64,000 bases of DNA from Sphingobium cloacae (lineage in GTDB: Bacteria; Pseudomonadota; Alphaproteobacteria; Sphingomonadales; Sphingomonadaceae), in contig NZ_AP017655.1 in assembly GCF_002355855.1 (NCBI RefSeq), forward strand, positions 2,013,501 through 2,077,500, in the 5' to 3' direction. Made by a program: the position numbers and the translations under genes. This document shows, one piece after another, positions 8,600-40,989 of this stretch. The notes below the pieces were generated by a model. That model saw only the letters and a list, made by a program, of their open reading frames with translations. It was not told where the DNA came from and did no database searches. How positions within the stretch are numbered: position 1 is the first letter of the stretch; each line of letters opens with the position of its first letter.

Positions 8600-9967
8600 A
8601 TGCTGCCCACTGTTGCCATTGTCGGGCGGCCCAATGTGGGCAAGTCCACCCTTTTCAACCGGCTGGTGGGCAAGAAGCTGGCACTGGTCGACGACCAGCC
8701 CGGCGTCACGCGCGACCGGCGCGAGGGGCAGGCGAACCTGCTGGGCGTCGACTTCACCATCATCGACACCGCCGGTTATGAGGATGAAGACCCGCAGACC
8801 CTGCCCGGCCGGATGCGGATGCAGACGCAGGCGGCGGTGGAAAGCGCCGATGTCGCGCTGTTCCTGATCGACGCGCGCGCGGGCATCACCCCGCTGGACG
8901 AGGAAATCGGGCGCTGGCTGCGCGAAGGCGACGCGCCGGTGGTGCTGGTCGCCAACAAGGCGGAGGGCAAGGCCGCCGAGCCGGGGGTGATGGAAGCCTT
9001 CAGCCTGGGCCTGGGCGACCCCATCCCCTTTTCCGCCGAACATGGGCAGGGCCTGGCCGACCTGTTCCAAGCGCTCCTCCCCCATATCGACCGCGAGGAG
9101 GAGGAAGAGGAAGGCGAACCGGACGAGGCCGATCTGGAAGCCGCGCCGCTCAAGCTCGCCATCGTGGGCCGTCCCAATGCGGGCAAATCGACGCTCATCA
9201 ACCGGCTGCTGGGCCAGAACCGGCTGCTGACCGGGCCGGAAGCGGGCATCACGCGCGACAGCATCGCGGTGGACTGGACATGGACCAGCCCGGACGGGCA
9301 GGACCGTCCCGTCCGCCTGATCGACACCGCCGGGATGCGCAAGCGCGCCAAGGTGCAGGACAAGCTGGAAAAGCTGGCCGTGTCCGACGGCCTCAACGCC
9401 GTCAATTTCGCCGAGGTCGTGGTGCTGCTGCTCGACGCCACGCGGGGGCTGGAGGCGCAGGACCTGCGCATCGCCGACAAGGTGCTGGAGGAAGGGCGCG
9501 CGCTCGTCATCGCGCTCAACAAATGGGACACGGTGGACAATGGCTCGGCGCTCTATCAGGGCATCAAGCAGGCGTTGTCCGATGGCCTCGCGCAGGTGCG
9601 CGGCGTGCCGATCATGACCGTCTCCGCCGCGACGGGCAAGGGACTGGACGATCTGATCCGCGTCGCCTTCGACACGCGCACGGCCTGGTCGCAGCGCGTA
9701 TCGACGGGCATACTCAACCGCTGGTTCGAGCGCGCGCTGGAGGCCAACCCGCCCCCCGCGCCGGGCGGCAAGCGGATCAAGCTGCGCTACATCACCCAGA
9801 ACAAGACCCGGCCGCCGACCTTCGTGCTGTTCGGCACGCGGCTGGACGACCTGCCCGAAAGCTATCGCCGCTATCTGGTGAACGGCATCCGGAAGGAACT
9901 GGGTTTCGGCGCGGTGCCGGTGCGGCTGACGCTGCGGAGCGCCAAGAATCCCTATGCCAGCAAATAG
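8600..9967 (+). CDS. der: Ribosome-assembly GTPase Der (EngA)
   Basis: Der is the tandem-GTPase factor for 50S ribosome maturation. Two complete G domains are visible: GRPNVGKST near residue 8 with DTAGYED, and GRPNAGKST near residue 190 with DTAGMRKRAKV and NKWD. A KH-like C-terminal domain ends with VPVRLTLRSAKNPYASK. The linker between the G domains is very acidic (EEEEEEGEPDEADLE). Length 455 is typical. It follows bamB across the REP-like repeat, and its last 14 bases overlap the TusA-like gene. Confidence 0.97.
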   Translation: MLPTVAIVGRPNVGKSTLFNRLVGKKLALVDDQPGVTRDRREGQANLLGVDFTIIDTAGYEDEDPQTLPGRMRMQTQAAVESADVALFLIDARAGITPLDEEIGRWLREGDAPVVLVANKAEGKAAEPGVMEAFSLGLGDPIPFSAEHGQGLADLFQALLPHIDREEEEEEGEPDEADLEAAPLKLAIVGRPNAGKSTLINRLLGQNRLLTGPEAGITRDSIAVDWTWTSPDGQDRPVRLIDTAGMRKRAKVQDKLEKLAVSDGLNAVNFAEVVVLLLDATRGLEAQDLRIADKVLEEGRALVIALNKWDTVDNGSALYQGIKQALSDGLAQVRGVPIMTVSAATGKGLDDLIRVAFDTRTAWSQRVSTGILNRWFERALEANPPPAPGGKRIKLRYITQNKTRPPTFVLFGTRLDDLPESYRRYLVNGIRKELGFGAVPVRLTLRSAKNPYASK

Positions 9968-10175
9968 CGCGGTCCTGGTGAATGCGCGGGGGATGAAATG
10001 CCCCTGGCCCGCGCTGCGCGCCGCCCGTGCGATGCGAAGCGCCGGGGCGATCATCGTCGAAGCCGACGATCCCGTCGCGCCGGGGGAACTGGAGGCGCTG
10101 GCCCGGCAGCAGGGATGGGCGTTCGAGGCGATGGACGGCAACCGCTTCTCGCTGCGCCAGGATCGGGCGGGTTAA
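9954..10175 (+). CDS. TusA/SirA-family sulfur-carrier-like protein
   Basis: A 73-residue protein with the TusA/SirA signature: LVNARGMKCPWPALRAARAM places the conserved Cys at 16 inside CPxP, followed by a strand with VEADDP and a second helix (ELEALARQQGW). Family members relay sulfur for tRNA thiolation or molybdenum-cofactor and redox pathways. The start overlaps der by 14 bases in another frame, so translation is probably coupled. No partner sulfur genes are adjacent, so which pathway it serves is unknown. Confidence 0.8.
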   Translation: MPANSAVLVNARGMKCPWPALRAARAMRSAGAIIVEADDPVAPGELEALARQQGWAFEAMDGNRFSLRQDRAG

Positions 10176-10280
10176 GGGGCCGAAAGCCTGCCCAGTGCTC
10201 CCCATGTCCCGCCCCCCGCTTTAACAGGCTGTTTACACGCAACCTCTATGGTCATTCCGCTTGAGCAAGGAGTGATCGGG

Positions 10281-25811: not shown

Positions 25812-26824
25812 GTGTTTGATCCCACGGTTTGATGGTGCGATCCTTTCGTTGGAATGGAAGGAAGCCTTATGGGACAGGTACGTCACGGGAGCGCCACGAC
25901 CACGCACGCCGTCCGAGCAGCAATACAGCGATCGCAAGCTTCGCTCGCGACGCTGAGCCGGGATTTGGGGATCAACCCGAAGACGGTGGCGAAGTGGCGC
26001 AAGCGGGCGACGGTCGAGGATTTGAAGACCGGGCCGAAGGCCCCTCATTCCACCACCCTGTCCGAGGCCGAGGAGGCAATGGTTGTGGCGTTCCGTCGAC
26101 ACACGTTGCTGCCGCTCGATGACTGTCTTTATGCCCTGCAACCATCGATCCCGCACCTGACACGATCGGCGCTGCACCGATGCCTGCAGCGACACGGCAT
26201 CTCTCGCCTGCCCGACATCGAAGGTGACAAGCCAAAGCGACAACGCTTCAAACGCTATCCGATCGGCTTCTTCCACATCGATATTGCCGAAGTGCAAACT
26301 GCAGAAGGCAAGCTGTACCTGTTCGTCGGCATCGACCGCACCAGCAAGTTCGCCGTCACGCAACTCGTCGACAAGGCGGATCGCCGAACGGCGTGGGAGT
26401 TCCTCGAACACCTGCTGAAAGCGGTGCCCTACCGCATCCACACGATCCTGACGGACAATGGCATCCAGTTCGCCGAGCAGCCGCGCAACCGTAACACCGC
26501 ATGGTCACGCCAGATGCGCTTCGACATGATCTGCGAGGCAAACGACATCGAGCATCGTCTCACCAAACCGAACCACCCGTGGACCAACGGCCAGGTCGAG
26601 CGGATGAACCGGACCATCAAGGAGGCGACCGTCAAACGCTTCCACTACGACAGCCATCAGCAACTCCGGACGCACCTCGCTGACTTCATGGCCGCCTACA
26701 ACTTCGCCCGAAGGCTCAAAACGCTCAGCGGGCTCACACCCTACGAATACATCGCCAAGATCTGGACGTCAGAGCCAGAACGGTTCATCGTCAACCCAAT
26801 CCACCAGATGCCGGGACTGAACAA
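25812..26824. mobile_element. IS481-family insertion sequence, about 1.0 kb
   Basis: The element holds one transposase gene. Imperfect ends are proposed: TGTTTGATCCC at the left and TGTTCAGTCCC (reverse complement) at the right. A four-base CTAA flanks both ends (25808-25811 and 26825-26828), in keeping with the CTAG-like target preference reported for IS481. Boundaries are tentative because the inverted repeats match only partly. The two flanks belong to unrelated genes, so the copy marks a deletion or recombination junction rather than a simple insertion. Confidence 0.7.
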
Positions 26825-26828
26825 CTAA
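25869..26828 (+). CDS. IS481-family transposase
   Basis: A 319-residue DDE transposase with an N-terminal helix-turn-helix (LSRDLGINPKTVAKWRKRAT) and an rve integrase-core domain: Asp in FFHIDIAEVQ, Asp in ILTDNGIQF and Glu in NGQVERMNRTIKEATVKRF, followed by YNFARRLKTLSGLTPYEYI. It appears intact. The ATG at 25869 follows GGAAGGAAG and begins the usual MGQVRHGSA; an in-frame ATG at 25854 is less likely. If the IS ends at 26824, the TAA stop comes from the target sequence. Confidence 0.92.
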   Translation: MGQVRHGSATTTHAVRAAIQRSQASLATLSRDLGINPKTVAKWRKRATVEDLKTGPKAPHSTTLSEAEEAMVVAFRRHTLLPLDDCLYALQPSIPHLTRSALHRCLQRHGISRLPDIEGDKPKRQRFKRYPIGFFHIDIAEVQTAEGKLYLFVGIDRTSKFAVTQLVDKADRRTAWEFLEHLLKAVPYRIHTILTDNGIQFAEQPRNRNTAWSRQMRFDMICEANDIEHRLTKPNHPWTNGQVERMNRTIKEATVKRFHYDSHQQLRTHLADFMAAYNFARRLKTLSGLTPYEYIAKIWTSEPERFIVNPIHQMPGLNN

Positions 26829-27756
26829 TCGGCCTTGCCCGTGTCCTGATCGACGGGAACGCATATCGCCCGGAACCGGACAGGGAGCGCATATCGGTGA
26901 GGATCGCCAGCGACTGCCGGGACAGCGGCACCGAATGGGGCTGGCGCATCTTCATCTTTGCGTCCGGGATGATCCAGACCGCCTTATCAAAATCCACCTC
27001 CGTCCATTCCATCTGCCGGATTTCGCCCGGACGCTGGAAAACGTGGGGCGTGAGTTTCAGGGCATAGATAACGGCGGGATCGCCCTGATAATCTTCGATC
27101 GCCCGGAGTAACGCGCCGAACGCCACCGGATCGGTGATCGCGGGGAAATGCTTGACCCTCGCTGTCGTCAGCGCGCCTATCAGCAGTTGGGCCGGGTCGC
27201 GATCGGCCCGCGCCGTCGCCACCCCATAGCGAAAAACGCGGCTGGCGAACGCCCGGAGAAGATTCGTCGTATCCAACCGGCCCCGCCGCTCATGCTTACG
27301 CAGTTCGTGCAACAGTTCCTGCGGAGTGATCTCCGCGATGGGGCGCTTGCCGAAATCGCGGCCCAGCAGCTTCACAAACCAGCGCATCTTTTTCAGTGTC
27401 GGTTCCGCCAGCCCCTCCCGCGTCTTCTTCTCAATCAATTCCTCGGCCACGCTGGCGAAACTGTGGCTGGCGCGGATGCTCGCCTCGATGCAAGCTTGAC
27501 GCTTGGCGGCGTTGGGATCGACCGCATGGGCAACTTGCCTACGGGCCGCATCGCGCGCTGAGCGCGCTTCGGCCAGCGTGATTTCAGTATACGACCCCAG
27601 CGCCAGCTTTCGCTCCACGCCGTTGAGCCGATATTTGACGCGCCAGAGTTTGCTGCCTCCCGGATTGACCAGCAGGTAAAGCCCCTGGCCGTCCGTGATC
27701 TTGTAGGGCTTGCCTTTGGGCTTCGCGTTGCGGACTGGGGTGTCTGTCAGCGCCAT
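26825..27756 (-). pseudogene. P4-type tyrosine recombinase (tRNA-targeting integrase), truncated by the IS
   Basis: From its start at 27756 the gene shows the DUF4102 N-terminal domain (MALTDTPVRNAKPKGKPYKI, GQGLYLLVNPGG), a core-binding domain, and the beginning of the catalytic domain with LTPHVFQRPGEIRQMEW (first catalytic Arg). It stops at RYAFPSIRTRARPIS where the IS begins, so the HxxR and nucleophile Tyr are missing, about 90-100 residues. Integrases of this group insert at tRNA 3' ends; a tRNA-Cys gene lies 170 bp upstream. This copy cannot be active. Confidence 0.88.
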
Positions 27757-27758
27757 TT

Positions 27759-27797
27759 GGGGGCCTCGCTCTTGTGGGGGCCTTTGGCGAGGCCCCC
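27759..27797. repeat. Strong inverted repeat just upstream of the integrase start
   Basis: GGGGGCCTCGC (27759-27769) and GCGAGGCCCCC (27787-27797) form a perfect 11-bp stem with a 17-base loop, two bases before the integrase ATG on the minus strand. It would fold in the leader mRNA and could limit translation, or serve as a recombinase arm site. Confidence 0.5.
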
Positions 27798-27923
27798 AAA
27801 ATTGCCCCGATCTGCCACATTTATAGGCAAACAGAGGCAGTCGCTGACAATCAGCGATGCCCCTAAACTAACGGAAATCTAAGGTTTTTTCAACCATCAG
27901 CACACGTTGGCTGACAGGGTAGA

Positions 27924-27997
27924 TGGAGGCCCGAGCCGGAATCGAACCGGCGTATACGGATTTGCAGTCCGCTGCGTCACCACTCCGCCATCGGGCC
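27924..27997 (-). tRNA. tRNA-Cys (GCA anticodon)
   Basis: The minus strand folds into a complete cloverleaf of 74 nt. The acceptor stem is GGCCCGA with TCGGGCC, the discriminator is T (U73, expected for Cys), and CCA is encoded. The anticodon loop reads CTGCAAA, giving GCA, and the T-arm is CCGGTTCGATTCCGG. Its 3' end faces the truncated integrase, so it is the probable attachment site of the accessory island to the left. Confidence 0.95.
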
Positions 27998-32795: not shown

Positions 32796-33290
32796 ATGCA
32801 GGCCGGTATGAGCGTAATGATGGGAATGAAATGGTCGATCATTGTCTTTGCCAGCGCGCTCGTCCTCGGTTTTCTCGGCATGGGAGCGCTCGGTGCGGCG
32901 CTCTACTATGCGTGCTACCCGCTACTGGCGCCATTCTATGGCAATCTCGTCAACTGGCACGGCGACTGGGTCTGGAGCGCGACCATCTGGGCAGGCGTTC
33001 TGTGGCCATTCACATTTCTCATTGCAGGCGGGCTCAATCTCTATCTCACGCCTTATGCGCCCGTTCTCCTGAGAGGGGCAGGCTATGTCCTGGTGCTGTG
33101 GCTCGGCGCGGCCCTGATCTGGGCGCTCATACTGGCTATATCCTACAAGACGCCGGAAGCGGCCTGTGCCGAGACCGGCAGCGCGCGTTTCGGGCCTTGC
33201 ACACGGGCAGACATCATGACCGGGAACGCGACGCCCGTTTCCGCGCGAACAGGCGCCGCCATCCGATCACGACGCCGCTCATGGAAATGA
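32796..33290 (+). CDS. Hypothetical integral membrane protein
   Basis: Up to 164 residues with three or four hydrophobic segments: IIVFASALVLGFLGMGALGA, VLWPFTFLIAGGLNLYL, and GYVLVLWLGAALIWALILAI. No family recognised. Several in-frame ATGs (32796, 32808, 32817) make the start uncertain. Its last 77 bases run into the convergent PepSY gene, and the C-terminal 35 residues are Arg/Ala/Thr-rich and may be read-through of what was a shorter protein. It follows the DUF3592 gene by 130 bp. Confidence 0.55.
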   Translation: MQAGMSVMMGMKWSIIVFASALVLGFLGMGALGAALYYACYPLLAPFYGNLVNWHGDWVWSATIWAGVLWPFTFLIAGGLNLYLTPYAPVLLRGAGYVLVLWLGAALIWALILAISYKTPEAACAETGSARFGPCTRADIMTGNATPVSARTGAAIRSRRRSWK

Positions 33291-34740
33291 CGATGCCTGC
33301 CACGGACAGGAGCCAGACGACGATATGCCGCAGCGGCGGCCAGACAAGCAGCCACGGCAAATCAAAGCTGTGCAGCGCATTGAACAGCCAACGGTAGGAG
33401 CGCCCGCCCGATCCCAGCTTTCCGAGCAACGCGCCCGTGACCGGATCGATGTGGAGCCATGTGTGGGAAGGATCGTCGAATTTCAGCCGCCATATCGGCA
33501 GCGGCCGGCTGTCATCCCGTTCGTCGCCCGTCGAATACCAATAGCGGTCGGGGCGCTCCAGACGCTCCATGTCGACGAGTCGGGCGCCAGGCATGGCTTT
33601 CCCCGCCAGGGCGGCAATGCGCGTCCAGTCCAGGGCCACCACACCGGCCGTCCGCCCATCCAGCAACGTGGCAGGTCCGCGCCCCCACAGGCTGATGACC
33701 GGATCGCCGCCCAGATAGGCGAAACGCAGTTCGCGGGCGCCATGCGCGATCCGGGTCAGCGCCGCGATGTCGGTCGCGGGAAAGCCGGGCTTTGCGCCGA
33801 CATAGAGGCTGGCCGCATCGGCATGGCTCCTGTCCCGCAGTCCGCCCCAGGGACTCATCGAGAGCCAGCCGCTGAAGACCCAGCCGATGAGAAACACGCC
33901 GCCGAGCAATCCGATGACATGATGCCATTTCATCCAGCCCGCATAGGGGCTGATCGAACCCGACCGATACCGCCGGGTCAGGCGGACGCGCAGCATGCCG
34001 ACCCAGAAACCCGCGACCGCGCCCAACATGCCGATGCCCGATGTCCAGAGCACGACCTGCCGCCACGGTTCCTGAAACAGGCGCAGCGCCTCGAAATAGA
34101 TCCAGTGCGGGACAGCGCCCAGCCAGTTCCAGAATCGCTCATGCGCGGTCGTGTTCTGCACGACCTCCCCGGTCTTCTGGCTGACATAGATGTCGGTCGA
34201 CGCCGGATCGGCGAGCCGCACGCGCCAGAAGGGCGCCATCGCGTGATAGGCGCGGGTGACGACCCATTGGTCATGGGCAACGGGATCGACGGAGAGCGCC
34301 CGCGCCCCGGCAAGCTGCTCCGCGATCTGCCGGGCGCGGGGCGCGTCGACGCCGCCGATCTCCCGGCCGGTCCTTGCCGACACCGCCCGCCGCCCTGCTT
34401 TCGTGACGAAGCGATAGACGGGCTCCCCGCCTGTCATGCCCAGCCGCATCTCGGCGGGGAAATCCTTTTCGCCCAGGCTCGCCAGGGCCTGGCCGGGATC
34501 GACATGCACCTGCGGCCAGTCGATCGGCGCTGCCGTCCCGACCCGCTCCGGCGCGCGAAAGGATGGGAAAGACACATAGAGCATCACCAGTCCCGACAGG
34601 AACCAGATGGCGAAAAGGAGGCAAAGGATGATGCCCGTCCAGCGGTGGAAGACGTAAAGCCAGCGCTTCGCCTTCTTCCAGAGGGCGACGGGGACGGTTG
34701 GTCCCCGCCGCGCCGCTTGCCCCGGGTCAGAAGCCGACAT
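33214..34740 (-). CDS. PepSY-associated transmembrane protein (PiuB/FoxB-like reductase-type)
   Basis: 508 residues with four membrane helices and PepSY repeats in the periplasmic loops. Helix 1 with LYVFHRWTGIILCLLF carries a His expected to bind haem in PepSY_TM proteins; helices 2-3 contain WTSGIGMLGAVAGFWVGML and KWHHVIGLLGGVFLIGWVFS with a His pair; the last helix is near residue 475. Relatives (FoxB, PiuB) help release iron from siderophores by reduction at the inner membrane. Its start overlaps the TonB receptor's end by 14 bases, so both are read from the cobalamin-riboswitch transcript. It may reduce or process the receptor's ligand. Confidence 0.88.
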   Translation of the reverse strand: MSASDPGQAARRGPTVPVALWKKAKRWLYVFHRWTGIILCLLFAIWFLSGLVMLYVSFPSFRAPERVGTAAPIDWPQVHVDPGQALASLGEKDFPAEMRLGMTGGEPVYRFVTKAGRRAVSARTGREIGGVDAPRARQIAEQLAGARALSVDPVAHDQWVVTRAYHAMAPFWRVRLADPASTDIYVSQKTGEVVQNTTAHERFWNWLGAVPHWIYFEALRLFQEPWRQVVLWTSGIGMLGAVAGFWVGMLRVRLTRRYRSGSISPYAGWMKWHHVIGLLGGVFLIGWVFSGWLSMSPWGGLRDRSHADAASLYVGAKPGFPATDIAALTRIAHGARELRFAYLGGDPVISLWGRGPATLLDGRTAGVVALDWTRIAALAGKAMPGARLVDMERLERPDRYWYSTGDERDDSRPLPIWRLKFDDPSHTWLHIDPVTGALLGKLGSGGRSYRWLFNALHSFDLPWLLVWPPLRHIVVWLLSVAGIVISMSGVVIGWRRLFARKRASRSRS

Positions 34741-36847
34741 GGAGCGTCGCTTCCACCGTGCGCGGGTCTCCCAGCACCCATTGCGTCGCGCCATAGGTGG
34801 AGCGGGCATAGGTTTCGTTGAAGACATTGCGCAGGCGCAAGGCGATGCTGGCCCCTTCGACCAGTTGCCGCCTCAGGCCGATATCGGTGAGGGTATAAGC
34901 GGGCACCACGCGGGTGTTCGCTGCGTCCTGATACCGCTTGCCGACATGGCTGACGCCGCCGTCGACGACCCACCCTTCGGCGAACTCCCAGCTGACGAAG
35001 GCATTGGCGCTTTTCGCCGCGACATTGCTCGGCCGGTTACCGGCGCGCTGGAAGAGGACGCCGCCCACGGACTCGGTGAAATCGTCGTAGCGCGCCCGCA
35101 GCAGCGCGCCGTTGAGGGTGATGCTGAAACCGTCCACCGGCTCCAGGAACAGGGATGCTTCGACCCCGCGCGAGGATTGCTGGCCGACCTGGACCTGGAT
35201 GGTGGGCACCAGGGGATCGGAAGTCAGCAGCTTGCGCTTCACGATGTCATAGACCGCCAGCGTCCACTGGCCGCGCGTTCCCCAGAAGACATGCTTGATC
35301 CCGGCCTCATATTGGCGGCCGGTCGACAGGTCGAAGGCGCTTTGGGCGAAGCTGGTGGAAACGAGCGCGCCCACCGGATCGGCCGCCGTCGCATATTGTC
35401 CGTAGAGCGCCAATGCCGGCACCGGATTATAAACCGCGCCGACGCGCCAGGTGACGGCATCGGGGGTGGCCGTGAAATTATTGGCGGCGTTCACATAATC
35501 CGTCTTGGTGATTTCCGGCTGGTCGTAGCGCAGCCCGCCCACCAGCGAGAATTGCTCGCTGAACTTCAGCCGATCCTCGGCAAAGATGGAATATTGGCGG
35601 ATCTTGTTGGTATAGCGCGGCCTGGTCGGCGCGCTCGCCTGATGGATGAAAAGGCCGGGCACCGGATCGATGGCGTCGACCAGCCGCGTCGCGTTGTTGC
35701 CGCTGTTACTGACATTCTTGTAGCTGATCCGGTTGATGTCGAACCCCAGGACCAGCTGGTTTTCCAGTCCGCCGATCTGGTGCGCCAGGTTCGCGGTGGT
35801 CCGGTTCCCCGTCTGCTTCTGGATATGGTAGAGTTCGAGAAAGCTCGACTGCCGCACCTGTGCCGGGCTGTCCGCCGTCGCAGGCACATAGGTGACGCTT
35901 TCCGCATTCTTCCAATATTTATTGGCCCAGAGATGATAGAAGGTGCTGCGGATCGTCAGCGCTTCGGAAGGAGTCCATTCCACCTTCGCCTGACTCCAAT
36001 TGTCCCGGAAGCGCAGGTTGGCGTCGGCGGCATTGTAATTGTTGCGGCGAAGCGACCGGTCGAGCTTGCCGTTCACCAGCGGTACGCCGAACCAGGTGCG
36101 CGGGCTCTGGCTGCTATAGTCGTGCGAAAGGGTGATGCTGAGGTCCGCAGCCGGTTTCAGCCGAACCGCCCCGGAAAGCGCCAGCGCATGGGAATCCCCC
36201 CGATCCATCCAGCCTTCCGACCGACGATAGCTGGCATCGGCGCGGAAGCCGACGCCCGCGACGACCGGACCGCCCGCCCCCGCCGCAACGTTCAGGCTGT
36301 CATAGGACGCAAAGCCGATGCGGCCGCTGGCCATCATCTCGTCCGAAGGTTCTTTGCGCACGACGTTGACCGCGCCGCCAATAGCGCCCTCGCCATAGAG
36401 GACCGAGGCGGGACCGCGCAGGATTTCCACGCTCTGCGCCATCCACGGATCGGCCGGGAAAGTCAGCGTGTTGTTGTACATGCGCATCCCGTCATAAAGC
36501 GTCATAACCGAGTTCTGTCCGGTGAAACCGCGCGCCGAGAGGCCGTAGCCGAACACGCCCGACATATTGACGATACCGGTCGCGCGGGCGGCCGCATCCT
36601 GGATGGTGAGGTCGCCGCGCAGGCGAATCGCATCCCCATCCAGCGTTTCGACGCTGGCGGGCATCTCCAGCGGCGTCAGGCCAAGACGGCTCGCGCCTTC
36701 GGTCTTATGGTTCAGGCGGAGCGGATCGACCGTGCCGGTGACGACGATCGTCGCATTGTCCGCCACCGCACCGGGATGCTCGGCGTGGACAACGACCGGT
36801 GCGGCCAGTGCCGGGACCGCGATCGCGGCCGAAACATATTTCAACAT
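34727..36847 (-). CDS. TonB-dependent receptor under cobalamin-riboswitch control
   Basis: 706 residues: signal peptide (cleavage after VVHA, about residue 22), TonB box ATIVVTGT, plug with QSVEILRGPASVLYGEGAIG, and a 22-strand-type barrel ending TVEATLHVGF. By sequence style it belongs to the siderophore-receptor group (RGLxxQ-like plug, RQYEAGIKH in the barrel). Yet a full cobalamin riboswitch lies in its leader, which argues that its ligand is vitamin B12 or another corrinoid. The ATG at 36847 is chosen because the signal peptide starts there; the frame is open to 36946. The PepSY gene follows by overlap. Confidence 0.92.
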   Translation of the reverse strand: MLKYVSAAIAVPALAAPVVVHAEHPGAVADNATIVVTGTVDPLRLNHKTEGASRLGLTPLEMPASVETLDGDAIRLRGDLTIQDAAARATGIVNMSGVFGYGLSARGFTGQNSVMTLYDGMRMYNNTLTFPADPWMAQSVEILRGPASVLYGEGAIGGAVNVVRKEPSDEMMASGRIGFASYDSLNVAAGAGGPVVAGVGFRADASYRRSEGWMDRGDSHALALSGAVRLKPAADLSITLSHDYSSQSPRTWFGVPLVNGKLDRSLRRNNYNAADANLRFRDNWSQAKVEWTPSEALTIRSTFYHLWANKYWKNAESVTYVPATADSPAQVRQSSFLELYHIQKQTGNRTTANLAHQIGGLENQLVLGFDINRISYKNVSNSGNNATRLVDAIDPVPGLFIHQASAPTRPRYTNKIRQYSIFAEDRLKFSEQFSLVGGLRYDQPEITKTDYVNAANNFTATPDAVTWRVGAVYNPVPALALYGQYATAADPVGALVSTSFAQSAFDLSTGRQYEAGIKHVFWGTRGQWTLAVYDIVKRKLLTSDPLVPTIQVQVGQQSSRGVEASLFLEPVDGFSITLNGALLRARYDDFTESVGGVLFQRAGNRPSNVAAKSANAFVSWEFAEGWVVDGGVSHVGKRYQDAANTRVVPAYTLTDIGLRRQLVEGASIALRLRNVFNETYARSTYGATQWVLGDPRTVEATLHVGF

Positions 36848-37039
36848 TCTCTTCCCCCGTCGGCGTCTCACGACAAATGGGCGGGGGCGTGCCGTTCGCG
36901 AACGGTCGGCAACCGGCATCGGCCGGACGCCTGAGGCGACCGACACGCGGCTCCGATGCGGCCCCTGCCGCTCGTTCGTCGCTCAGACGGAGTTCACCGT
37001 GCCGCGGCCATCCCCTGGACCAGGGCAAGAGCGACCAGA

Positions 37040-37262
37040 CGCCGGCAGGTCTCCTGGCTCATGGGTCATCGCTTGACATACGGCCTTCCCAGGCCCCGCA
37101 GGATTTAGCGTCCGGCCCAGTGGCTGGCGGCTCGGGCGCAATGCCGTCCGCACTTATATGTCGCGCTCGCCACTTACAGTTGCAGGGACAGCTGCGGGAT
37201 AAGGCCTCGAACGACCCGCACCGCATTCCCTTTTCATCCCCGTCTCCGGGGAAACCGACGCG
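37040..37262 (-). promoter_or_regulatory. Cobalamin (adenosylcobalamin-type) riboswitch
   Basis: Read on the minus strand, the RNA contains in order GATGAAAAGGGAATGCGGTG, CTGTCCCTGCAACTGTAAG, AGCCACTG, CTGGGAAGGCC and finally the B12 box AGCCAGGAGACCTGCC followed by GGC. These are the conserved blocks of the cobalamin riboswitch in the right order and spacing. About 190 bases separate it from the start of the TonB receptor at 36847. Binding of cobalamin would lower expression, so the receptor and PepSY genes are expected to be switched on in B12 shortage. Confidence 0.96.
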
Positions 37263-37308
37263 ATCTTCATCCTCCCTACGGCCGAAGGACGCGGAAAGGA
37301 CAAGGCTC

Positions 37309-37370: not shown

Positions 37371-38102
37371 TCATGGCCGCCAGCGGCAGAAATCATCCTG
37401 CATGGCCCGGTCCAATGTCGCGCGGCAATCCGCATAGGCCGGGTGGGCCGGTTCGATCACGCCCATCGCCATGTCGGGCAACTGCGCCTGCGGCACGAAG
37501 GCAATCGGACAGGCAACCGGCACCAGTTGCGATCCCGCGCCGACCTGCAAGGTTGTCAGCAGGCCGAACATCCGCCCCTCGCGCGTCGGACGGCTGAGGA
37601 TGATGAGCCGGTGCTGCCCCTGCTCATTGGTCGAAAGATAGATATGTCCCGACAGGTTGGGCATCGACACATGGCCCGACTGGGCGAAGGCGCCGTCCGC
37701 GCGGTCCGCCTCGGCGAAGCGCAGATAGCCCGCCGCCTCGTCCCATGCGACCCGCGTCCGATAGGCGATGACCGCGCCCGGCGTGCCGAAACTGGCCCGC
37801 AGCGTCACATAATCCTGTTCGATCCAGCGGATCGCGGCGCGGCTGTAGGCACCCATATGATCGGGCGCCAGATCACGCCCCACACCCGGATCGCCACCAT
37901 TCCCGCCACGCAACGCCGCGCCCAGCGCCTCCTCGATCCTCACTACCGTCGCCAGGGTGAAGGGGCGGCTGCCCGATAGCGCCTTTTCCAGCGTCGACAG
38001 GCTGATCCGCGCCATATCCGCCAGCGCCTGCCGCGACATGCGCCGCCGCGCCAGTTCTTCGCGCAGCCTTTCGGCAAATCCCTCGTCCGCTTCCGGCTGC
38101 AT
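37371..38102 (-). CDS. XRE-family transcriptional regulator with C-terminal sensor region
   Basis: 243 residues. Residues about 10-70 form a helix-turn-helix of the XRE type (ERLREELARRRMSRQALADM, then ISLSTLEKALSGSRPFTLAT). The remaining 170 residues form a single soluble domain of alternating strands (AYSRAAIRWIEQDYVTLRAS, GHIYLSTNEQGQHRLIILSR) that I do not recognise and that may bind a small ligand. The ATG at 38102 is preferred over the frame's upstream opening. It is divergent from the sortase-substrate gene, with direct repeats in between, so it may regulate itself and that pair. Confidence 0.8.
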   Translation of the reverse strand: MQPEADEGFAERLREELARRRMSRQALADMARISLSTLEKALSGSRPFTLATVVRIEEALGAALRGGNGGDPGVGRDLAPDHMGAYSRAAIRWIEQDYVTLRASFGTPGAVIAYRTRVAWDEAAGYLRFAEADRADGAFAQSGHVSMPNLSGHIYLSTNEQGQHRLIILSRPTREGRMFGLLTTLQVGAGSQLVPVACPIAFVPQAQLPDMAMGVIEPAHPAYADCRATLDRAMQDDFCRWRP

Positions 38103-38130
38103 CGGCTTCCCCCATAAGGACCGGACAATT

Positions 38131-38263: not shown

Positions 38264-40399
38264 ATGGAGTCCGCCATGCCCCTTTGCCTCTTTCCCCGCC
38301 GGTCGCGCAGTCGTCTGGCGCTCGGCCTCTCGCTGCTTCTGGGCCTTGTCGCCCTCATCTTCCTGACGAGCCGCCTCACCGCCGCCGAACCGGCCGCCGA
38401 TCCCGACGCCATCGGCAGCGGCACGCTGATGCTGCAAGGAAAAGGGGTCGCCACCGCCATGCCCGCCATGCGGCTGGGCACCGACATGGACGTAACCGTC
38501 AGCGGCCAGACCGCCCGCGTGCGCGTGACGCAGGCGTTCCGCAACAGCGGCAATCAGTGGATGGAGGCGACCTATCTCTACCCGCTGCCGGAAGAGGGCG
38601 CGGTCGACAGCCTGAAGATGGTAGTCGGCCAGCGCGTCATCATCGGCCATATCAAGCGCCGGGAGGAAGCCCGCGCCATCTACGAGAAAGCCCGCGAGGA
38701 AGGGAAGAAGGCGGGCCTCGTCGAATCCGAACGCCCCAATCTGTTCCGCAACAGCGTCGCCAATGTGGGACCGGGCGAGACGGTGCTGATCTCCATCGAA
38801 TATCAGGCCCCCGTCCGCCAGCTCAGCGGCGAGTTCGCGCTGCGCCTGCCGCTGGTCGCGGGGCCGCGCTACACGCCGCAGCAGACCCCCGCCGCCGACG
38901 CGCAGGCCGTGACCGCGCGCCTCGCGCATCCCACGCTGGGCAAGGATCTGAACCCCGTTTCGATCACCGTCCGCCTCACCCCCGGCTTCAAGCCCGCCAA
39001 TCTCATCAGCCCCTGGCACCGCATCGCGGTCGAGCAGGACGGCGAGCAGAACCGCACCATCCGCCTCGCCGACGGCGAAGTCCCCGCCGACCGCGACTTC
39101 GAGCTGCGCTGGCGTTCGGCCAGCGCCGATCCGACGATCGGCCTGTTCCGTCAGACCCTGAATGGCGAAGATTATCTGATGGCCGCCATCACCCCCCCGA
39201 TGCAGGAGCGGAAACGCGCCGCGCCTCCCCGCGAAATGGTTTTCGTCATCGACAATAGCGGCTCCATGGGCGGCCAGTCGATGGATGCGGCCAAGGACAG
39301 CCTGCTCTATGCGCTCGGCACGCTCCGCCCGCAGGACCGCTTCAACATCATCCGGTTCGACGACACGATGACGCGCCTGTTCGACGACAGCGTCCCCGCC
39401 ACGGCGGAGCAGATCGCGCTGGCCCGCCGCTTCACCGAGGGGCTGGAGGCCAATGGCGGCACCGAAATGCTGCCCGCGCTGCAATCGGCCCTGATCGACA
39501 GCCGTCCCGCCGACATGCAGGGCGTCCGCCAGATCGTCTTCCTGACCGATGGCGACATCTCCAACGAGAAGGAGATGATGGCCGCCATCGCCGCGAAGGC
39601 AGGCCGCAGCCGCATCTTCATGGTCGGCATCGGCTCCGCGCCCAACCAGTATCTGATGCGCCGCATGGCCGAAGCGGGCCGGGGCACCTTCACCAATGTC
39701 GGCACCGGCGAGGAAGTCGCCGCGAAGATGACGGCGCTGCTCGACCGCCTCGCCAGCCCCGCCGTCCGCGACCTCAAGGTCAGCGTCGAAGGCGCCAGCC
39801 TCGACCTGACCCCGCGCAAGCTGCCCGACCTCTATGCGGGCGAACCGCTGGTCCTGCTGGGCCGGGAGAAGCTGATCGGGGGCAACGCGCCTGGCGGAAA
39901 GCTGACCGTCACCGGCATGATCGGCGACAAGCCCTGGTCGCAGACCTTGGACCTGCGTGACGCCGCCGAAAGCCCCGCCGTCGCGAAGCTCTGGGCCAAC
40001 CGCCGCATCGCCGATGCCGAAGCCGCCCGCTGGGCCGATGAGACGGACGACGCCACCGCCGACGAAACCATCGCGCAACTCGGCCTCGCCTACTCCATCG
40101 TCACCAGCCAGACGAGCCTCGTCGCGGTGGACGAAACCCCGGCCCGTCCCGAAGGCGCGAGCCTGACGCGGGAGGAACTGCCGCTGCTGCTGCCCGCTGG
40201 CTGGGATTTCGATGTCCTCTTCGGCGGACAGGCCGCCGGGGCCGCGAAGGGCGGCGACACGCAGCCCGCCGAACAGGCGCAGGCGATGGACCTGCCCCAG
40301 ACCGCCACCGGCTATATGGGCATGATCGCCGGGGGCATGGCCCTGCTGCTCATCGGCCTTGCAGGGCTTGGCATCCAGCGCCGGAAGGTCCGCGCATGA
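38264..40399 (+). CDS. Marine-proteobacterial-type sortase target protein (VIT and vWA domains)
   Basis: 711 residues: N-terminal signal or anchor helix (LALGLSLLLGLVALIFL), a VIT domain (VRVTQAFRNSGNQWMEATYL, then REEARAIYEKAREEGKKAGL), a von Willebrand A domain with the metal-ion site VIDNSGSMGG near residue 330, and a C-terminal sorting signal: LPQTATG near residue 676, a hydrophobic helix, and RRKVRA at the end. The design is that of the single dedicated substrate of class GN sortases in Gram-negative bacteria. The exposed protein is likely surface or periplasm-anchored; ligand unknown. Its stop overlaps the sortase start as ATGA. Confidence 0.9.
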   Translation: MESAMPLCLFPRRSRSRLALGLSLLLGLVALIFLTSRLTAAEPAADPDAIGSGTLMLQGKGVATAMPAMRLGTDMDVTVSGQTARVRVTQAFRNSGNQWMEATYLYPLPEEGAVDSLKMVVGQRVIIGHIKRREEARAIYEKAREEGKKAGLVESERPNLFRNSVANVGPGETVLISIEYQAPVRQLSGEFALRLPLVAGPRYTPQQTPAADAQAVTARLAHPTLGKDLNPVSITVRLTPGFKPANLISPWHRIAVEQDGEQNRTIRLADGEVPADRDFELRWRSASADPTIGLFRQTLNGEDYLMAAITPPMQERKRAAPPREMVFVIDNSGSMGGQSMDAAKDSLLYALGTLRPQDRFNIIRFDDTMTRLFDDSVPATAEQIALARRFTEGLEANGGTEMLPALQSALIDSRPADMQGVRQIVFLTDGDISNEKEMMAAIAAKAGRSRIFMVGIGSAPNQYLMRRMAEAGRGTFTNVGTGEEVAAKMTALLDRLASPAVRDLKVSVEGASLDLTPRKLPDLYAGEPLVLLGREKLIGGNAPGGKLTVTGMIGDKPWSQTLDLRDAAESPAVAKLWANRRIADAEAARWADETDDATADETIAQLGLAYSIVTSQTSLVAVDETPARPEGASLTREELPLLLPAGWDFDVLFGGQAAGAAKGGDTQPAEQAQAMDLPQTATGYMGMIAGGMALLLIGLAGLGIQRRKVRA

Positions 40400-40989
40400 C
40401 CGCCGCCGCCGCGATGAAAGGGGGACGCGCCTTCAGGCGCGTCCTTCCCACGATCCTCCTGACGGCGCTCTGCCTGCTCGGCCTCACCCTGATGGCGAGG
40501 GGCGCGATCGTCCCGATCAAGGCATGGGCCGCGCAAATCCTGCTCGACCGCGCCTTCGACCAAAGCCTTGCCCGCCACCAGCCGGTCAAGCCATGGCCCT
40601 GGGCCGACACCGCCCCTGCCGCCCGCATCGCCGTGCCGCGTCTGGGCGTCAGTCAGGTCGTGCTGTCGGGTGGATCGGGACAGGCCATGGCGTTCGGCCC
40701 CACGGTCATGCCCGCCAAGCCGCCGGTCACGATCATGGCCGCCCACCGCGATACCCATTTCGCCTTCCTAAAATCGGTGCGCCCCGGCGACATGGTGGAG
40801 GTCCAGTCCATCGATGGAGAAACCCACCGATACACCATCATCGGCTCGACCGTCGTCCGCTGGGATCGCTTCGCCTATCCGGCGCATCCGGAACGCCCGC
40901 TGCTGGCGCTCACCACCTGCTATCCATTCGATGCGAACAGCCATGGCCCCCTGCGCTATATCGTCTGGGCGGAACGGCATGACGGATGA
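40396..40989 (+). CDS. Class GN sortase
   Basis: 197 residues with an N-terminal membrane anchor (VLPTILLTALCLLGLTL) and the sortase beta-barrel. The catalytic triad is visible: His117 in MAAHRDTHF, Cys175 in LALTTCYPF and Arg187 in GPLRYIVW. Sortases cleave the LPxT-like signal of a substrate and join it to an acceptor. The start overlaps the substrate gene by four bases, so the two are translationally coupled one-to-one. The nature of the acceptor in Gram-negative cells is unsettled. Confidence 0.93.
   Translation: MTAAAAMKGGRAFRRVLPTILLTALCLLGLTLMARGAIVPIKAWAAQILLDRAFDQSLARHQPVKPWPWADTAPAARIAVPRLGVSQVVLSGGSGQAMAFGPTVMPAKPPVTIMAAHRDTHFAFLKSVRPGDMVEVQSIDGETHRYTIIGSTVVRWDRFAYPAHPERPLLALTTCYPFDANSHGPLRYIVWAERHDG

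Follow-up and report, generated by a model that had tools for sequence, protein, structure and literature searches.

In the alphaproteobacterium Sphingobium cloacae, a 64,000-nt stretch of contig NZ_AP017655.1 (the window, in whose coordinates positions are given) carries on its minus strand a two-gene operon that stands behind a full-length cobalamin riboswitch and encodes a TonB-dependent receptor related to the copper-chelate importer CrtA, followed by a membrane protein of the PepSY_TM family. The reading that we favour, with a probability of roughly 0.6, is that this operon serves the uptake of cobalt chelates, whose metal the PepSY protein would set free by periplasmic reduction of the complex. 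Beyond the RNA and the anatomy of the genes, each step of the proposal, whether ligand, metal or reductase role, is a prediction from sequence.

Cobalt destined for vitamin B12 has to pass the outer membrane, and a 2021 review (PMC7689651) counted no cobalt-specific outer-membrane receptor as confirmed. Offered here are a candidate receptor family, which spans Alphaproteobacteria and some Betaproteobacteria and includes several cultured strains, and a likely inner-membrane partner; the sequences also name residues for testing, i.e. E316 and H341 of the receptor, and H212 and H457 of the PepSY protein. If correct, the proposal would account for the ability of bacteria in soil and water to obtain cobalt from tight organic complexes, would bear on which members of a community make B12, and would mean that one receptor family serves different metals through a change of regulator. 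A cobalt role for a riboswitch-linked sphingomonad receptor, from Novosphingobium, is already in print (PMC7689651); what is new, as far as seen, is that a PepSY partner is often present, that the receptor is kin to CrtA, that the family is taxonomically broad, and that it is tied to CbiC and CobN. Among open-licence papers, judged by title and available passages, none was found that links PepSY proteins to B12 riboswitches or to the uptake of cobalt, and none that uses the term 'cobaltophore'; the description of the system as a little-described one, given in a first-pass annotation of this DNA, stands.

Riboswitch, receptor and PepSY protein

The first-pass annotation had a full cobalamin riboswitch heading a transcript of two translationally overlapping genes, and both parts of that description are borne out. 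The Rfam cobalamin model (Table 1) matches over its full length (model positions 1-189 of 189), its score comparing with a gathering score of 31.5 bits, and a whole-genome riboswitch search also recovered the same element. A spacer of 179 nt separates it from the receptor start codon (ATG at 36845-36847), which is preceded by the Shine-Dalgarno-like GGGGGAAG. When a fragment of the leader is folded with RNAfold, the Shine-Dalgarno GGGGG (36854-36858) is predicted to pair with CCCCC (36883-36887), and a C-run/G-run hairpin before the start is predicted in 15 of the 16 sphingomonad leaders folded (from a total of 18, with L075 and L125 left out), the exception being L078, which gave no pattern match. 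Folding of the whole window leader pairs the G-run with 37022-37025 instead, which makes the hairpin one of two predicted alternatives; the modelled folds are compatible with a switch that controls translation. The start codon of the PepSY gene sits within the 3' end of the receptor gene, with an overlap of 14 nt, and the next coding-like frame past the PepSY gene (32796-33290) lies on the opposite, plus strand; the transcript therefore appears to hold two genes.

The receptor has the Plug and TonB_dep_Rec (barrel) domains of Pfam and, as first proposed, is of the siderophore-receptor type, scoring 231.5 bits on the subfamily model TIGR01783 (cut-off 223.5). On the BtuB model TIGR01779 it reaches 54.5 bits and misses the equivalog cut-off of 599.7, which taken alone is a weak test, since a BtuB-like receptor encoded elsewhere in the same genome (locus L010; 319 bits) misses it too. 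Its closest relative of solved structure is CrtA (9RVQ/9RVX; 322.5 bits over 700 residues, the next match having 113.8), and in a structure search with the receptor model 9RVQ was not among the matches listed; on these sequence grounds we regard the protein as a relative of CrtA, not as a demonstrated orthologue. Three CrtA ligand residues, Y130, E337 and H358, are retained as Y124, E316 and H341, and among the aligned receptors the E316 position is conserved in 82 of 82 and the H341 position in 76 of 82. The remaining ligands, W265, Q356 and R395, are replaced by F253, L339 and approximately Y376, the position of R395 being uncertain in the alignment. Given that three of six ligand residues differ, the receptor was not classed as a CrtA copper transporter.

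The assignment of the partner to the PepSY_TM reductase-type proteins likewise survives, with PF03929 matching at 53.9 bits (cut-off 28.8). The predicted model has four membrane helices and two periplasmic PepSY domains, with conserved histidines in both halves, and H32, H212, H273, H274 and H457 are invariant in 32 sequences; H212 and H457 lie 245 residues apart, compared with 244 for H200 and H444 of CrpH, the PepSY protein that accompanies CrtA. Searches of the PDB with the sequence or its profile gave no credible relative, Foldseek on the model returned nothing at E <= 0.001, and the fold match with FoxB has a root-mean-square deviation of 10.3.

In the mechanism that we propose, scarce cobalamin would cause the riboswitch to let ribosomes reach the receptor start codon, and the receptor would import a cobalt chelate using TonB energy. 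Chelates of Co(III) are inert. Electrons would cross the inner membrane via two haems held by the histidine pairs H32/H273-274 and H212/H457, and the PepSY protein would turn inert Co(III), or tightly held cobalt, into labile Co(II). The ion would then reach CobN through a separate permease, a part that CbtAB would play in this genome and NiCoT in some of the others, and plentiful cobalamin would turn the pair off. A wider claim, which we put forward tentatively and with less than even confidence, is that such operons form a widespread reductive cobalt-uptake pathway, in which a dedicated Co(III)-chelate receptor, a haem-relay PepSY enzyme and a NiCoT or CbtAB permease would be tuned to B12 by riboswitches, as the cobalt twin of ferric-siderophore reduction.

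Table 1. Features of the operon and its leader in the window
Feature	Position	Strand	Basis
Cobalamin riboswitch aptamer (RF00174)	37027-37274	minus	cmscan, 104.6 bits, E 4e-25
Predicted hairpin, candidate expression platform	36854-36887	minus	RNAfold of leader fragment
TonB-dependent receptor, CrtA-related, predicted cobalt-chelate receptor	34727-36847	minus	Pfam, NCBIfam, PDB sequence match
PepSY_TM membrane protein, predicted haem-dependent reductase of imported complex	33214-34740	minus	PF03929

Recurrence of the operon and its genomic associations

An alignment-based scan of named genomes, from which the best 80 of 321 receptor loci were retained, shows that the arrangement recurs. With riboswitches called by an nhmmer profile built from 11 copies, 49 of the 80 loci have a cobalamin riboswitch immediately before the receptor gene, five have one ahead of an operon that joins an ATP-binding cassette (ABC) transporter and the receptor, and 26 have none, three of these (L100, L117 and L151) having almost no upstream DNA; at L130 an ABC operon lies upstream, and the contig is too short there to reveal a riboswitch of the distant type. 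Rfam agreed with the nhmmer labels wherever it was tried, the riboswitch being present in 8/8 positives and absent in 8/8 negatives. The directly linked loci belong to Sphingomonadales (17), Hyphomicrobiales (23), Rhodospirillales (2), Rhodocyclales (5) and Burkholderiales (1, Variovorax), with one unplaced alphaproteobacterium. The genome search that the first-pass annotation had recommended, for receptor-PepSY pairs behind cobalamin riboswitches, finds them to be recurrent: of the riboswitch loci, which number 50 when the window is counted, 41 have a PepSY gene directly after the receptor. Among the other nine, an ABC transporter lies directly downstream in L094, L103 and L142 and convergently in L106, L085 ends early, L073, L080 and L090 have no recognised PepSY gene, and L096 has only PepSY gene ends. 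This last locus, from Bradyrhizobium semiaridum, keeps the riboswitch and receptor, and the two PepSY gene ends lie in one short frame (9911-10198, plus).

On a receptor tree, which is a quick one with long branches, the riboswitch label switches about seven times. No label was given there to L100, L117 and L151, with their near-absence of upstream DNA, or to L113, which has a riboswitch and was set aside by choice, and L119, L125, L085, L134 and L148 were dropped as duplicates, fragments or overlong. The S. cloacae genome itself holds one more receptor-PepSY pair (L059, 5005-8542, plus), which belongs to a more distant type and has no riboswitch; relatives of that pair in L069 and L070 do carry one, and L070 also has NiCoT and cobN.

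In four relatives the order is riboswitch-receptor-PepSY-NiCoT, with cobN farther on: L067 and its twin L119 (Rhizorhapis suberifaciens), L098 (Novosphingobium kunmingense), L115 (N. endophyticum) and L070, the last with a receptor of the more distant type. A second riboswitch and cobW precede cobN in L067, L098 and L115. The NiCoT assignments are based on PF03824 in L067 and L070, on TIGR00802 in L067, and on similarity in L098, L115 and L119. Permeases of the NiCoT family transport free Ni(II) and Co(II) ions, and freeing the ion would be a sensible role for a PepSY protein that acts between the receptor and such a permease. In addition, L069 has cbtA next to the pair, on the opposite strand, and L081 has both cbtA and cbtB beside it. 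Overall, NiCoT, CbtAB or cobN lies near 4 of the 50 riboswitch loci as against 0 of the 26 others, three of which nearly lack upstream DNA.

Corrin-ring synthesis, followed through CbiC, goes together with the riboswitch. The search for CbiC covered 48 of the 80 named genomes, and 53 of the 82 rows of the tree have data; CbiC is present in 31 of 36 riboswitch rows (including four of the ABC-first type) compared with 0 of 17 rows without a riboswitch (Fisher 8e-10). In a sample of 149 genomes of the family CbiC is rare, occurring in seven of them: it is present in 4/6 with a riboswitch-linked pair vs 3/143 others (p 2.6e-5), and CobN-type genes, which were separated from magnesium-chelatase matches by score and by our own sorting, occur in 6/6 vs 16/143 (p 5e-6). 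The loci opened in that sample were solely those whose PepSY match reached at least 190 bits, such that a riboswitch-linked receptor without PepSY would escape. No match to the CobN family was found in six genomes of the sample that have a related PepSY gene but no riboswitch there (G076, G014, G085, G008, G147 and G079). Several of the genomes are drafts or metagenome bins, and absences are correspondingly soft.

Elsewhere in the 4.55-Mb S. cloacae genome, in which five cobalamin riboswitches score strongly and one further match is weak (25.6 bits), B12 and cobalt genes stand behind several of these elements. At L010 a riboswitch precedes the BtuB-like receptor mentioned above and genes of the periplasmic-binding, FecCD-permease and ABC-ATPase families; TIGR01779 is the best model for that receptor, the partners fall below the Btu cut-offs (BtuF 20.7 bits), and the genes, named from context, are likely BtuB/F/C/D. 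Further riboswitches precede CobS-, CobD- and CbiB-type genes (L008) and cobW-cobN-cobO (L009), and the weak match precedes cbtB-cbtA. CobN of this genome scores 1544 bits on TIGR02257 (cut-off 822), and CobT, CobW, CobO and CbtAB are also present. The strongest cobalamin riboswitch of the genome, at 112.7 bits (L007, 5899-7961, minus), precedes a 335-residue gene with no NCBIfam match, which we take to be DUF1852/MesX-like, and a short MetE-type methionine synthase gene.

Weighing of the readings

Several observations count against a role in cobalt uptake, the weakest point being the biology of the strain itself. The genome of the window has no CbiC, and its tetrapyrrole methylases amount to two matches over cut-off, taken for SUMT and RsmI, and one weak match; both suggest that the strain lacks corrin-ring synthesis. 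It thus has a cobaltochelatase without a ring pathway, and its need for cobalt is unexplained. In all, five of the 36 riboswitch genomes are without CbiC (L073, L081, L107, L123 and the window), each of them having a full-length CobN-type match, and the link between riboswitch and CbiC is confounded by descent, independent pairs standing at 4 to 0 (p 0.125). Cobalt-specific neighbours occur in only four of the riboswitch loci, the window's own operon has neither NiCoT nor CbtAB, and pairing with PepSY, which is found in 10 of the 26 riboswitch-less loci as well, is not particular to the riboswitch class. A FecCD/BtuC-type ABC transporter replaces PepSY in L094, L103 and L142 and stands upstream in five Azospirillum-type loci (L086-L088, L091 and L092); in L142 the permease scores 234 bits on the BtuC model (cut-off 461), and the binding protein, at 52.7 bits on BtuF, is nearest to F420-0 and EitA models. 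ABC partners of this type would also fit the import of an intact corrinoid. Finally, the departures of the receptor from CrtA are common to 13 Achromobacter/Bordetella-type receptors that lack the riboswitch, and for this reason no residue was found that marks cobalt. The changed CrtA residues had been considered as a sign of another metal, and that idea was dropped, given much the same changes in the Achromobacter/Bordetella-type receptors.

An orphan cobaltochelatase, i.e. a CobN-type match of at least 1235 bits by PF02514 score without CbiC, occurs in ten genomes of the family, this one included (G107, G021, G088, G000, G133, G084, G071, G061, G094 and G101); the check with the CobN model covered this genome and G071. 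Import of a metal-free corrin for an orphan CobN was considered; no evidence for it was found, and the reductase would have no task.

It is unlikely that the operon is a corrinoid system, in which cobalamin, or a corrinoid that is not complete, would enter through the receptor, and the PepSY protein would reduce cob(III)alamin to cob(II)alamin or strip the upper ligand in the periplasm. A B12 riboswitch is indeed present, a genome without corrin-ring genes must salvage, and the ABC partners in L094, L103 and L142 include BtuC-like permeases. However, the same genome has a likely separate BtuB-like receptor with BtuF/C/D genes, the window receptor scores far below that of L010 on TIGR01779, NiCoT and cobN follow the pair in four relatives, and the riboswitch copies are mostly in corrin makers (31 of the 36 tested); importers of corrinoids should be no rarer among salvagers than among makers. 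The first-pass annotation had taken the riboswitch to imply a corrinoid ligand, an argument that is not borne out: genes for cobalt uptake are also controlled by B12 riboswitches (PMC7689651), NiCoT and cobN accompany the pair in relatives, and CrtA, not BtuB, is the nearest solved relative. It had also noted that no btuB, btuF, btuC or btuD is visible nearby, which is true of the surrounding frames but not of the genome, with its BtuB-like receptor and likely BtuF/C/D at L010. The further suggestion that the pair replaces BtuFCD is accordingly rejected; since a likely B12 uptake route exists behind another riboswitch of the same genome (the genes there being named from context, with no curated cut-off passed), such a replacement is not needed.

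Less probable again is an importer of copper, iron or nickel chelates of the CrtA/Hiu kind that came under a B12 riboswitch for another reason. The best solved relative is a copper importer, half of the six CrtA ligand residues are kept and the other three are changed alike with and without the riboswitch, such that sequence does not separate the metals; moreover, receptor-PepSY pairs are known both for copper (PMC12914433, PMC13038864) and for ferric hydroxamates (PMC13001220). Against this, corrin-ring synthesis tracks the riboswitch loci and not the riboswitch-less ones, and genes for NiCoT, CbtAB or CobN lie near four riboswitch loci and near none of the others; nickel would be a possible cargo of NiCoT as well, but control by B12 speaks for cobalt. 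Quite improbable is a cobalt importer whose PepSY protein has no reductase role and serves instead, for instance, as a factor that structures or dissociates the complex. Such a role would suit the weak PepSY_TM score, the rmsd of 10.3 of the fold match with FoxB and the finding that CrpH works independently of CrtA (PMC13038864), yet the histidine positions expected for two haems are invariant, and the H212-H457 spacing is close to that of the CrpH pair, whose joint replacement phenocopies deletion (PMC13038864).

Two other parts of the window drew attention. On the plus strand, a gene for a marine proteobacterial sortase target protein (TIGR03788, 701.7 bits) is followed by an overlapping 197-residue frame, possibly its sortase (together 38264-40989). 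At 26791-27997, a transfer RNA gene (27927-27997) adjoins a 321-residue frame, presumably a phage-type integrase, perhaps at the edge of a genomic island.

Comparison with known systems

With BtuB-BtuFCD the operon shares a TonB receptor controlled by a cobalamin riboswitch, and it differs in receptor family, inner-membrane partner and gene neighbours, a likely Btu copy being separate in the same genome. IcuAB of Methylobacterium extorquens, whose raised expression improved growth under cobalt limitation and was read as better cobalt uptake (PMC2732905; same operon in PMC2773004), likewise consists of a TonB receptor and a partner with overlapping frames; unlike the PepSY_TM protein, IcuB is a predicted periplasmic protein of 243 residues, icu deletions gave only small effects (PMC2732905), and the word riboswitch is absent from both papers. 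HiuABC of Caulobacter (PMC13001220) and FoxA-FoxB of Pseudomonas resemble the operon in having a TonB receptor and a PepSY reductase-type protein, with reductive release of the metal in the periplasm proposed; HiuABC (for iron) and FoxB are the model for the reduction step put forward here. HiuABC serves Fur-controlled uptake of ferric siderophores (PMC13001220), unlike the riboswitch-linked operon.

Among the closest known systems is CrtA-CrpH (BfrG-BP2921), a copper system of Bordetella pertussis (PMC12914433, PMC13038864); a PepSY_TM gene follows crtA in >75% of loci, and the CruR gene comes first in >40% of crtA operons (PMC12914433). Both systems have a TonB receptor gene followed by a PepSY_TM gene, the receptors are homologous over their whole length and keep Y130, E337 and H358, and the PepSY proteins have paired histidines, the likeness to CrpH being drawn from published residues, not from sequence comparison with CrpH itself. 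They differ in the replacement of W265, Q356 and R395 and in control, which is by CruR and copper in the one and predicted by cobalamin riboswitch in the other. Bearing on control by CruR, the single upstream gene scanned (37371-38108) is of the HTH_3 type, and the leader is taken up by the riboswitch. A DUF2946 gene lies directly ahead of the receptor in both Bordetella/Achromobacter loci tested (L127, 7488-7892, plus; L145, 7487-7894, plus). We assume CruR to be a DUF2946 protein, and these genes are possibly the copper-sensing counterpart of the riboswitch. The L145 receptor, at 338 bits to 9RVQ, is no CrtA orthologue, and the receptor gene is followed by one for a PepSY_TM protein in L140 and by one for a sulfate permease in L127; to give this branch a copper role would therefore be guesswork.

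Also close is the arrangement of riboswitch, TonB receptor, NiCoT and CobW in Novosphingobium aromaticivorans, which has been predicted to be cobalt-specific (PMC7689651). That arrangement and the window operon both combine a cobalamin riboswitch with a TonB receptor in a sphingomonad, and both are read as serving cobalt, whereas they differ in that the section of the review which describes the former names no PepSY protein and the operon of the window has no NiCoT. Beyond N. aromaticivorans, the receptor family is traced here to Hyphomicrobiales, Rhodospirillales, Rhodocyclales and Variovorax.

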